This document shows positions 24,645 to 30,211 of a stretch of 44,466 bases of DNA, one piece after another. Origin of the DNA: Geminicoccus sp. (GTDB taxonomy: Bacteria; Pseudomonadota; Alphaproteobacteria; UBA7985); the NCBI GenBank assembly GCA_002705565.1, contig PAHJ01000156.1:1-44466 (forward strand). Reading direction: 5' to 3'. A program made the translations under genes and the position numbers. The notes below the pieces were generated by a model. That model had not been told where the DNA came from and ran no database searches. It worked only from the letters and a program-made list of their open reading frames with translations. How positions within the stretch are numbered: the stretch's first letter is position 1; each line of letters begins with the position of its first letter.

Positions 24645-25856
24645 ATGGACCAATTGCCTGTTTCTCCCCTGAAGCCAAAGACCATGGCAGCCCTTGAACC
24701 CCAGCGCGGTCTGAAGATCGCAACCGGCAACTCCGGCACCCGTTATCGCGGTCGAGATGACGTCACGCTCGTCGTTTTTCCGGCTGGAACGACGGTCGCA
24801 GGCGTGTTCACGAAATCTCGCTGCCCCGGTGCGCCGGTGGACTGGAGCCGACAGGTTTTGACCCAGGGCGGCGGCACCGCTCGCGCGCTGCTGGTCAATG
24901 CGGGCAACGCCAACGCTTTTACCGGTTCGCGCGGTGTCCAGGCCTGTCAGGTGACGGCGGAAGCGGTTGCAAAGGCAGTCGGGTGCCGTCCGCAAGATGT
25001 CATGCTGTCTTCAACCGGCGTGATTGGTGAACCGCTTGAGGCGGACGCAATCGCCGCCGTCGCTACCGACTTAGCGGCGCAGGCCACCGAAGATGACCTG
25101 CACGCCGCCGCACAGGCCATCATGACCACCGACACCTTCCCCAAGTGGGCCGTCGCGCAAGCTGGCGATGTCCGGGTTTCGGGTATCTGCAAGGGCTCGG
25201 GCATGATTGCGCCGGATATGGCGACCATGCTGGGCTACATTTTTATCGATGCACCGCTACCGGCGGACTGGCTGCAGGCGACCCTGTCCCGTGCGACAGA
25301 ACGGACGTTCAACAGCATCACTGTCGATAGCGATACCTCCACAAGCGACACCGTGCTGGCTTTCGCGACGGGCGAAGAGGGCGGCGCTGCTGTGGATCTG
25401 GATGCCGTAGGGGACGCCATTTTTTCCGTCTGTGATCAGCTTGCTGAAATGCTCGCCCGTGATGGCGAGGGCGCTTCTAAACTGATCACCATCGACGTCG
25501 AAGGCGCTGAAAGCGATGCGTCGGCCAAAACCATTGGCCTGTCCATTGCCAACTCTCCTTTGGTCAAAACAGCCGTTGCCGGGCAGGACGCGAATTGGGG
25601 CCGGGTGGTGATGGCGGTTGGCAAGGCCGGGGAACCGGCTGACCGGGACCGGCTGTCAATTTGGTTTGGTCCGCATCGCGTTGCAGAGGCGGGCTTGCGC
25701 GACCCGGATTACAGCGAAGACCAGGTTTCCGCTTACATGACAGGCGAGGAAATCAGCATTCGGGTCGTTTTGGGCTTGGGGCGCGGCGCGGCGCGGGTGC
25801 GCACCTGTGATCTGACCCATGGTTACATTACCATTAACGGAGACTACCGCTCATGA
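24645..25856 (+). CDS. argJ: Bifunctional ornithine acetyltransferase / N-acetylglutamate synthase
   Basis: ArgJ moves the acetyl group from N-acetylornithine to glutamate in the cyclic arginine pathway. The 403-residue precursor cleaves itself at the Ala-Thr bond in '[12 protein letters not shown]', making Thr194 the N-terminal nucleophile of the beta chain. Other signatures are '[13 protein letters not shown]', '[10 protein letters not shown]' and '[13 protein letters not shown]'. The ATG at 24645 gives the usual 'VSPLKPK' N-terminus although the ribosome-binding site is weak. The gene is divergent from the barnase gene (101 bp between starts). The next gene overlaps it by four bases (ATGA). 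Confidence 0.96.
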
Positions 25857-26875
25857 GTAGTTTTGCGCCCCAGTGGTTCCCCGATACTCCTGAGCTGGCC
25901 AGCTTCAAAACCCCCAACCTGAGCCTAAGGCTGTTTGGCCCAGAACACCTGGATTTTGTCCAGAAGACCGCGGCGCAATGGGAAGTGGCGCAATGGCTCG
26001 CCCAGGTGCCACACCCCTATCCTGAAGACGGCGCGCGCACCTTTTTGACATCGGCTGAAGATTGTTTTTCGTCGGGGCAGGCTTTGCGCTGGGTGGTGAG
26101 TGACCGTCAGACGGGCGCGATGCTGGGTTTTGTCGGGCTGGACGCCAAGGCCGGAAGCGATGAGCCCTGGCATCTCGGCTACTGGTTCGCGCCAGAAGCC
26201 TGGGGTCGAGGCGTTGCGACAGAAGCGGCCTTCCACGCCCTGACCTTTGCCTTCTGGTACATGGAGCTTCCGGCCATTTGGACGGGGTTTCATGTCGAAA
26301 ACCATGCTTCCCGCCGTGTTCTGGAAAAATGTGGATTTGAAGGCTGGACCGAGAGCAGCATTGAGACCGTTCACAGCGGACCTACCCCGTCCTACGAAAC
26401 CACCCTTTCCCGCGGATCATTTGACGAATTCGTCTTCTCCGGCGGTTGCACCATGCAGCCCCAGCTCGACCGGAATGTACCAGTCGTCTGGGTCGTTGCA
26501 GCGGCTTTGTTCAACGAGCAGGATCAAGTCCTTGTTGCCCAACGCCCTAAGGGGAAAGCACTGGAGGGATTGTGGGAATTTCCCGGCGGTAAAATCGAGC
26601 CCAATGAAGGCCCGGAAGCCGCCCTCATCCGCGAGCTGAAGGAGGAGCTTGGCATCGACGTCGGTATCGGCTGCCTGGCACCGCTGACTTTTGCCAGTTT
26701 CCCCTATCCAAAGTTCCACCTGATGATGCCACTGTACGCCGCCCGAAAATGGCAGGGCGAGCCCAAAGGAGTAGAGGGGCAGGCGATCAAGTGGGTGTCA
26801 AAGTTCGAGCTGCGAGACCTTCAAATGCCACCAGCGGACGAGCCGCTGGTTCCGGTCATCATGGACTGGATGTGA
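25853..26875 (+). CDS. GNAT acetyltransferase fused to MutT-type NUDIX hydrolase
   Basis: A 340-residue two-domain protein. Residues 20-185 are a RimJ/RimL-like GNAT N-acetyltransferase, with the acetyl-CoA loop in '[16 protein letters not shown]' and '[18 protein letters not shown]'. Residues 205-340 are a NUDIX hydrolase with the box '[20 protein letters not shown]' followed by ELGI, and the MutT-like '[19 protein letters not shown]', suggesting 8-oxo-dGTP or related nucleotide sanitation. In many alphaproteobacteria these are separate adjacent genes after argJ; here no stop codon separates them. An ATG at residue 201 could allow internal initiation of the NUDIX part, but its upstream sequence is a weak ribosome-binding site. 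The acetyltransferase substrate is unknown. Confidence 0.88.
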
Positions 26876-27673: not shown

Positions 27674-27828
27674 GGCGTCTCTCCTGTGTCTTTTGCGTGG
27701 AACTGTAGCGGTTTTGTCTGCCATGTCGATGTACGATGACGGAGGGGCATGCCTTTTTTGGCCTAGGCGGGCTTCCTGCAGGTGCCTAAAAGATAACCTT
27801 ACTTGGCGATGCGAGAACAGATCACCCA

Positions 27829-28599
27829 ATGACAGCCAAATCTGCCTTTCGAACCGTGTTCATCTCGGACACGCACCTGGGAATGACCGGCGTACGCAAT
27901 CGAACGCTGCTGTCGTTTCTGGAGACGCTGTCCTGTGAAACCCTGTATCTGGTGGGCGACATGATCGATGGCTGGGCTTTGCAGCGGCGTTGGCAGTGGT
28001 CCGCCACGGACGATGCGGTTCTGATGCAGATCAACCGGCTGGTCGGGGCAGGAACTCGCGTGGTCTACATTCCCGGCAACCACGATGACATGGTTCGCCG
28101 CGTGCTTGACGTCGAGCGGTTTCACGGTGTCGAGCTGCGCATGAATGATACCCATGAACTGGCTGACGGTCGGCGCTTTTACGTCACTCATGGCGACCAG
28201 TTCGATGCGGTAACACGCAATATGGAGTGGCTGTCTCGCTTTGGACACGTGCTTTACGAGGGCTACACGGCTATCATGCGGCAGGTCGCCAAAGTGCCTG
28301 GTTTCGGGTGGGCCCGAAATATGCCGGCGCAGGTCAAGAGTCTGTCCAAGCGCATCTTTCAGCCCCAAGGGGCCTTTGAGCGCGGGCTGAAACGCGAAGC
28401 CGCCGCCCTGGATGCGGTGGGTGCCATTGCCGGGCATATTCACCGTCCCGCTTTGAACACGAAAGACGGCTTTACCTATGCTAATTGTGGCGACTGGATT
28501 GAGTCGTGCACGGCACTGGTAGAAAACAACGAGGGCCGCTTGAGCCTGGTGTACTGGTCAGACGAAGGCCTGACCGATGAAAAGGAGTACGTTGCCTAA
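27829..28599 (+). CDS. plcP: PlcP-like metallophosphoesterase (probable phospholipase C)
   Basis: A 256-residue calcineurin-like phosphoesterase. The metal ligands are in order: D14/H16 ('SDTHLG'), D44 ('GDMIDGW'), N84/H85 ('GNHDD'), H121 ('THGDQFD') and H203/H205 ('GHIHRP'). Automatic tools often call such proteins UDP-2,3-diacylglucosamine hydrolase (LpxH). In alphaproteobacteria, the family member paired with a GT4 glycosyltransferase is PlcP, which cleaves membrane phospholipids to diacylglycerol during phosphate starvation. That pairing is present here: the stop overlaps the next start (TAATG). The role is inferred from family and context. No clear Pho box was found upstream and the ribosome-binding site is weak. 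Confidence 0.78.
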   Translation: MTAKSAFRTVFISDTHLGMTGVRNRTLLSFLETLSCETLYLVGDMIDGWALQRRWQWSATDDAVLMQINRLVGAGTRVVYIPGNHDDMVRRVLDVERFHGVELRMNDTHELADGRRFYVTHGDQFDAVTRNMEWLSRFGHVLYEGYTAIMRQVAKVPGFGWARNMPAQVKSLSKRIFQPQGAFERGLKREAAALDAVGAIAGHIHRPALNTKDGFTYANCGDWIESCTALVENNEGRLSLVYWSDEGLTDEKEYVA

Positions 28600-29642
28600 T
28601 GCATATCCTTCTGGTCAGTGACGCTTGGTATCCGCAAATCAACGGCGTGGTTCGCACGCTTGATACCACCCGTAAAATTGTAGAAGCAAAAGGGCATACC
28701 TTCAGCCGGGTTACGCCGGACTTGTTCGACGTGAACATGCCGATGCCCATGTATCAGGAAATCGGTCTCGCGCTGTTCTGGCCCGGTGAGGTCAGCCGGC
28801 GGATCAAGAAGATCATTGAGGAAAAGGGCGCCATCGACGCCATTCATGTGGCGACAGAAGGCCCACTTGGCATGGCCGCTCGGGCTTTTTGCCAGCGCAA
28901 CAAGATCCCTTTTACAACCTCTTTCCACACTAAGCTGGCCGAGTACATCAACGAGCGTACAGGGGTTCCTGCGGAATGGCTGTGGCGTTGGTTGGAATGG
29001 TTCCATCGCCCCGCGCAGCGCGTTCTGGTGACCAATCAGGGCATGGCGGATGAACTGGCTGAATTTGGCATTAAGCACACACATCTGTGGCCCCGCGGCG
29101 TTGATCTCGACCTGTTCCACCCGTCCAAAAAGCCGTCTGCACGCGTGGCTGAACTGGCCCGACCTGTGTTCGTCTATGTCGGTCGGGTAGCGGTGGAAAA
29201 GAACATCGAGTCTTTTCTTAAGTTGGATTTGCCAGGTACCAAGTTGGTGGTTGGCTCTGGCCCCTCGCTGGATTCACTTAAAGCGAAATACACCGATGCG
29301 GTCTTTACCGGACCCTTGCACGGTGACGAGTTGGCTGCGGCCTATGCCGACTCAGATGTCTTCGTTTTCCCCTCCAAGACCGATACGTTCGGCTTGGTTC
29401 TGCTCGAAGCCTGCGCGGCCGGGACGCCCGTTGCTGCTTATCCAGTGACGGGTCCGAAGGATGTGATCACGGACCCAACCGCCGGCACCCTGCGGGAAGA
29501 CCTGCACGAGGCCTGTATGACGTCGCTGGACCTGAAATCAGAAGATGCCCGTCGCTATTCTGAGGCGTTTTCATGGGAAGCCGCGACCGACACCTTTATC
29601 GAAGCTTTGGAACGAACCTCGGTGACGGGAAATGAGAGTTAG
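28599..29642 (+). CDS. Agt-like GT4 glycosyltransferase (diacylglycerol glycosylation)
   Basis: A 347-residue GT-B fold glycosyltransferase of family 4. The N-terminal 'SDAWYPQINGVVRTL' and the donor-site motif 'SKTDTFGLVLLEACAAGTP' (around E270, the EX7E region) are clear. 'FVYVGRVAVEKNIESFL' is typical of the group annotated as alpha-mannosyl or MGDG-type transferases. Placed directly after a PlcP-like gene, it matches Agt, which adds glucose or glucuronic acid to diacylglycerol to make phosphorus-free glycolipids. The start codon overlaps the plcP-like stop by one base, and the stop lies inside the next gene by 11 bases, so all three are probably translated together. Confidence 0.82.
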   Translation: MHILLVSDAWYPQINGVVRTLDTTRKIVEAKGHTFSRVTPDLFDVNMPMPMYQEIGLALFWPGEVSRRIKKIIEEKGAIDAIHVATEGPLGMAARAFCQRNKIPFTTSFHTKLAEYINERTGVPAEWLWRWLEWFHRPAQRVLVTNQGMADELAEFGIKHTHLWPRGVDLDLFHPSKKPSARVAELARPVFVYVGRVAVEKNIESFLKLDLPGTKLVVGSGPSLDSLKAKYTDAVFTGPLHGDELAAAYADSDVFVFPSKTDTFGLVLLEACAAGTPVAAYPVTGPKDVITDPTAGTLREDLHEACMTSLDLKSEDARRYSEAFSWEAATDTFIEALERTSVTGNES

Positions 29643-30189
29643 GTGCAGCGCTGTCTCTGTTCCACTTGCGCTGATTTTGGTTTCGGTGCTGCTGCTGTTG
29701 CCTGTTTTGCAACCCGCGCAGGCTGAGAGCCGCACCGCGCCCTTAGAGGCATTGTCATGGGAGCGGCGGGTGTTGCTGTTGTTTGCCGACCATCCTGCAG
29801 ACCCCTGGGCCTACAAGCAGCGTCTCGATCTGCTCGAAGATCGCTGCGACTTCAACAATCGAGATCTGGTCCTGCTGGAGGTCTATGCTGACCATGCGGT
29901 CCGGGTGACCGGTGTTTGGCTGGACGGACTGGCGCACGAGGAACAGGCGCTGAGCGAGGCCATGTTTGACGACGGCCAAAGGCCGATTCATAGCGCAGCA
30001 TTGCGAACCACTTACGGCATTCCGCAGGGCTTTGGTCTGGTCTTGGTTGGAAAGGATGGCTGGGAAAAACGCCGTTCTCGCATGCCTATCAGCGCGCACG
30101 AAATCTACGCTCAGATCGACGGTATGCCCATGCGCCAGCGCGAAATGCGCGATGATAATTGTGCTGGTCCGGCGACGAAGGGTTCCTGA
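29632..30189 (+). CDS. DUF4174 domain exported protein
   Basis: A 185-residue protein with a signal peptide (about 1-31, ending AQA|ES) followed by a DUF4174 domain ('PLEALSWERRVLLLFADHP', 'GLVLVGKDGWEKRRS'). DUF4174 has a thioredoxin-like appearance with no catalytic CxxC here and no proven function. The start overlaps the glycosyltransferase gene by 11 bases, tying it to the lipid-remodelling unit. The stop codon lies in one arm of a 9-bp inverted repeat. Confidence 0.8.
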   Translation: MRVRCSAVSVPLALILVSVLLLLPVLQPAQAESRTAPLEALSWERRVLLLFADHPADPWAYKQRLDLLEDRCDFNNRDLVLLEVYADHAVRVTGVWLDGLAHEEQALSEAMFDDGQRPIHSAALRTTYGIPQGFGLVLVGKDGWEKRRSRMPISAHEIYAQIDGMPMRQREMRDDNCAGPATKGS

Positions 30190-30211
30190 AGCCCAACACG
30201 TACAGGAACCC
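30180..30211. other. Hairpin over the DUF4174 stop codon
   Basis: GGGTTCCTG (30180-30188) and CAGGAACCC (30203-30211) are perfect reverse complements around a 14-nt loop. No T-run follows. It lies between convergent genes and may terminate or protect transcripts from both sides. Confidence 0.5.

Follow-up and report, generated by a model that had tools for sequence, protein, structure and literature searches.

Among bacteria that carry the lipid-remodelling genes plcP and agt, the commonest ('type 2') arrangement places agt downstream of plcP (Sebastian et al., PMC4796936). Deletion of plcP-agt in Methylosinus trichosporium results in the loss of glucuronosyl diacylglycerol (PMC9239053). The Agt clade was defined by Wei et al. 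by the motifs GRVAXEKN and FPSXTDTFG and by a His104-Asp256 pair (PMC8231724), and the activity of GTcp is almost lost upon mutation of Gly16, Gly82, Gly85, Arg190, Lys195, Thr257, Phe258, Gly259 or Glu264 (PMC8231724). Proteins of the DUF4174 family, a member of which is encoded next to the locus described here, have been predicted to be oxidoreductase-like (PMC10364804).

The window, that is, the whole stretch of DNA that was analysed, comprises 44,466 nucleotides from a draft genome that is 83% complete (G000). It was compared with the genus, which is represented by six species (G000 to G005, the source genome included), and with the order, which is represented by 11 genomes. The features of the locus are the following:

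27829 to 28599, forward strand: plcP, a PlcP-type metallophosphoesterase (phospholipase C-like) of 256 aa, assigned by Metallophos domains, the LpxH model score, motif and tree, and the S. meliloti homologue
28599 to 29642, forward strand: agt, a predicted GT4 diacylglycerol glycosyltransferase of 347 aa, assigned by GT4 domains, motifs and critical residues, and the neighbours of PlcPs in the class
29632 to 30189, forward strand: the DUF4174 gene, encoding 185 aa with a predicted Sec-type signal peptide, assigned by PF13778 and its N-terminus and found in three of the six species of the genus
27674 to 27828, no strand: the intergenic region between plcP and a divergent HpaI-family aldolase gene opposite it, free of a Pho box according to a six-congener alignment and Pho-box scans
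30180 to 30211, forward strand: a stem-loop across the stop codon of the DUF4174 gene, with a perfect 9-bp stem that is not followed by a U-run

We read positions 27829 to 29642 as a known 'type 2' plcP-agt bicistron, the activities being those expected by analogy, to which a lineage-specific and non-required DUF4174 gene has been added; the probability of this reading as a whole is approximately 0.86. The original prediction had described three overlapping genes forming a phosphate-sparing lipid-remodelling operon. Coordinates, strand and overlaps were all reproduced: plcP and agt share 1 nt (TAATG), whereas agt and the DUF4174 gene share 11 nt. The core of the prediction, remodelling by plcP and agt, is right, but already known; the identities of PlcP and Agt and the expected mis-annotation as LpxH hold, whereas the proposed DUF4174 role and Pho control are unsupported. 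The Pfam domains across the three open reading frames are Metallophos, GT4 and DUF4174. Among three congeners, dN/dS amounts to 0.06-0.11 for plcP, 0.03-0.04 for agt and 0.15-0.18 for the DUF4174 gene; this purifying selection indicates that all three are real genes.

Elsewhere in the window, at 25853-26875 and downstream of argJ, a single protein of 340 aa combines a GNAT acetyltransferase domain with a MutT-like NUDIX domain. Each of the six congeners has it as one long ORF (337-342 aa), and since it is unbroken throughout, the fusion is probably real.

By its sequence, the first gene is a PlcP-type metallophosphoesterase and not LpxH. All calcineurin-like metal-binding motifs are present (SDxHLG, GDxxDGW, GNHD, HGD and GHxH), and the third of these reads GNHD (GNHDD) at the place where LpxH has GNRD (GNRDF). 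In a tree of 41 PlcP-like and 5 LpxH sequences, the gene product is located on the PlcP side of a branch with 100/100 support that separates the two groups; the phylogenetic placement proposed along with the original prediction thus shows no clustering with LpxH. Public homologues, including the one from S. meliloti, bear the name 'UDP-2,3-diacylglucosamine diphosphatase', in agreement with the anticipated misnaming, and the analysis sets right the naming of a gene for which annotation pipelines would choose LpxH. These database names, together with weak similarity to models and structures of LpxH, are what would speak for a true LpxH acting in lipid A synthesis. Such a function is extremely improbable: the match to the LpxH model scores 36.6 bits, far below the curated cut-off of 190.35, and both motif and tree position contradict it. 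Moreover, LpxI was found in 11 of 11 genomes of the order, none of which has an LpxH above the cut-off; with LpxI everywhere and no LpxH, the gene is not needed for lipid A synthesis.

Within the same tree, the PlcPs of the genus form a branch of their own outside the subgroup that holds the S. meliloti homologue (39.5% identity; the species and the best match, rather than a locus tag, determined the choice of this reference). Given this position, the substrate choice of the genus PlcP could differ. The record that holds this S. meliloti reference, named plasmid pSymB (CP090106.1; L173), has a size of 3.7 Mb, far above that expected of pSymB, and may be a mislabelled chromosome.

The second gene, which had been proposed to encode an Agt-like GT4 enzyme, carries the hallmarks of that clade and is, as judged by its motifs and the His-Asp catalytic pair, an Agt; glycosylation of diacylglycerol would follow from its homologues. 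The two motifs occur as GRVAVEKN and FPSKTDTFG. Residues G16, G88, G91, H110, R196, K201, D262, T263, F264, G265 and E270 correspond to all eleven activity-critical residues of GTcp, matched by motif and by an offset that stays at six for every residue beyond the first glycine rather than by an alignment with GTcp. An Agt relative with 42-52% identity adjoins PlcP in all 28 of the closest PlcPs of the class; in one of these loci (L026), its position as computed is unusual.

The order plcP then agt is found in all six congeners and also in both order mates examined (G008 and G009). BtaA, which represents another route to non-phosphorus lipids, was not found in the six congeners, several of whose genomes are incomplete; plcP-agt is accordingly the sole such route found within what was tested. 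Characterised homologues suggest how the two enzymes could act in sequence: PlcP would cut the head group off membrane phospholipids, yielding diacylglycerol, to which Agt would add a sugar from a UDP-sugar, yielding a phosphorus-free glycolipid. By this analogy, the two genes very probably enable a marine bacterium to exchange phosphorus lipids for sugar lipids, and an uncultured genus of marine alphaproteobacteria joins the bacteria in which glycolipids very probably take the place of phospholipids.

Whether this exchange responds to phosphate is a separate matter. PhoB-mediated control is possible, but the genus has no recognisable Pho box at this locus: within ~300 nt upstream of plcP, none was detected in any of the six congeners, the best site scoring 4.3 bits. 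Phosphate control of the operon, part of the original prediction, is thus unsupported in the genus by this matrix search upstream of 27829, although not contradicted. The PHO-box matrix was hand-built and would overlook weak PhoB sites. The positive control, pstS, is preceded by Pho boxes that score 22-23 bits in G003 and G004 and by weaker ones of 12-15 bits in G005 and G000. PhoB itself is encoded in the source genome (323 bits; cut-off 296). Glycolipid production may alternatively be constitutive, or governed by a regulator different from PhoB, instead of being a phosphate-starvation response. The boxless plcP in all six congeners, set beside an encoded PhoB and four boxed pstS genes, points in this direction, as does the fact that the same matrix finds a site scoring at least 12 upstream of plcP in 5 of 28 class loci; yet many plcP genes of the class also lack a box by this very scan, and the hand-made matrix lets weak sites escape. 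A Pho box is present at some plcP loci and not at others, and does not strictly define them. This alternative is possible, but rather doubtful. In the intergenic region at 27674-27828, which separates plcP from the divergent aldolase gene, the blocks TGTCGAT and TGCnTTTTTnGnCCTA are shared by all six congeners, and both are possible candidates for the binding site of a regulator.

The third gene matches PF13778 with 83.8 bits (cut-off 27). The N-terminus of its product, read by eye, has a charged part and a hydrophobic stretch ending in AQA-E, as in a Sec-type signal, whereas PlcP and Agt have no signal peptide and their domains start directly at the N-terminus. Owing to this signal, the DUF4174 protein probably has its site of action beyond the cytoplasm, separated from PlcP and Agt. 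Its thioredoxin-like fold rests on the published prediction, since its alignment profile gave only sub-threshold matches to PDB sequences, the best being a peroxiredoxin with E 0.065; a CXXC motif is not present in the protein. Among the three congeners, its amino-acid sequence changes faster than those of its neighbours (dN 0.25-0.30 versus 0.04-0.13). The stem-loop at 30180-30211 has a conserved loop and occurs in the three DUF4174 carriers only. A mobile or repeated hairpin was considered and rejected, the full pattern occurring once per carrier genome.

Behind agt, the DUF4174 gene is found in three species of the genus (G000, G002 and G005), with the same 11-nt overlap in each. In the other three (G001, G003 and G004), synteny extends from the argJ region upstream of the locus to past isocitrate lyase, yet there is no DUF4174 gene; instead, the DUF4170 gene comes within ~70-115 nt after agt. 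No DUF4174 match was found elsewhere in these three genomes, one of which (G003) is 94% complete. In a sample of 385 genomes of the class, PlcP was detected in 146 and DUF4174 in 22. The co-occurrence check proposed earlier yielded a modest excess only, plcP being present in 13 of 20 DUF4174 genomes versus 144 of 383 overall (Fisher p = 0.016, without correction for kinship), and linkage of DUF4174 to plcP-agt is not conserved. Among the matches listed, plcP adjoins DUF4174 in none of the 13 alphaproteobacterial genomes outside the genus that have both; the two genes lie on separate contigs or are 135 kb or more apart. Of 80 named DUF4174 loci, only that of the congener MED834 has PlcP and Agt nearby; this metagenome-assembled genome, recorded as Rhodospirillaceae bacterium, is G002, and its contig matches the public locus letter for letter. 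Neither PlcP nor Agt was found near DUF4174 in the 79 named loci from other genera (flanks of up to 6 kb, some shortened by contig ends), and across these 79 loci no DUF4174 neighbour is frequent across phyla.

The original prediction had further raised the possibility that DUF4174 helps the process at the membrane, as a functional third component of lipid remodelling that would have been recruited in one clade. The overlap with agt, conserved in the three carriers and accompanied by purifying selection, suggests co-translation of DUF4174 with agt in the species that have it and leaves room for a clade-specific role, and the co-occurrence of plcP and DUF4174 in the class sample is somewhat above chance. 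On the other hand, half of the genus has the same operon without DUF4174, no linkage to plcP-agt was found elsewhere, 7 of the 20 DUF4174 genomes of the class sample are without a detected plcP, and the signal peptide places the protein across the membrane from PlcP and Agt. Such a partner role is therefore quite unlikely. There is similarly little chance that an exported DUF4174 protein, recruited by translational coupling, assists the handling of glycolipids outside the cytoplasm in one clade; if this were true, DUF4174 would gain its first link to a function in bacteria. DUF4174 is better regarded as an accessory, an essential partner role being unlikely: the gene is a lineage-specific addition behind agt, probably translationally coupled through the 11-nt overlap, and its product, probably periplasmic and thioredoxin-fold-like, is likely expressed together with the pathway, which does not require it. 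Being local and restricted to one clade, the linkage is no basis for assigning DUF4174 a role in lipid remodelling.

Compared with known systems, the first gene has the metallophosphoesterase superfamily in common with LpxH of E. coli and H. influenzae, but differs from these in having GNHD instead of GNRD, in scoring far below the cut-off and in belonging to a separate clade, and the genome uses LpxI. The third gene product matches the DUF4174 domain (PF13778) over its full length, including the GKDG and MPMR signatures, whereas the mature protein has two cysteines, conserved in the three congeners, that most other DUF4174 members of the class lack. With Agt/GTcp (PMC8231724), the second gene product shares both the GRVAXEKN and FPSXTDTFG motifs and all eleven activity-critical residues, its sugar donor being a predicted one. 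Relative to the 'type 2' plcP-agt loci of Pelagibacter HTCC7211 and Erythrobacter NAP1 (PMC4796936) and to M. trichosporium OB3b (PMC9239053), the present locus differs in the additional, overlapping DUF4174 gene of one clade, in having no detected Pho box and in a PlcP outside the S. meliloti group; it shares with them the adjacency and order of the two genes as well as the conserved motifs and catalytic residues of Agt.
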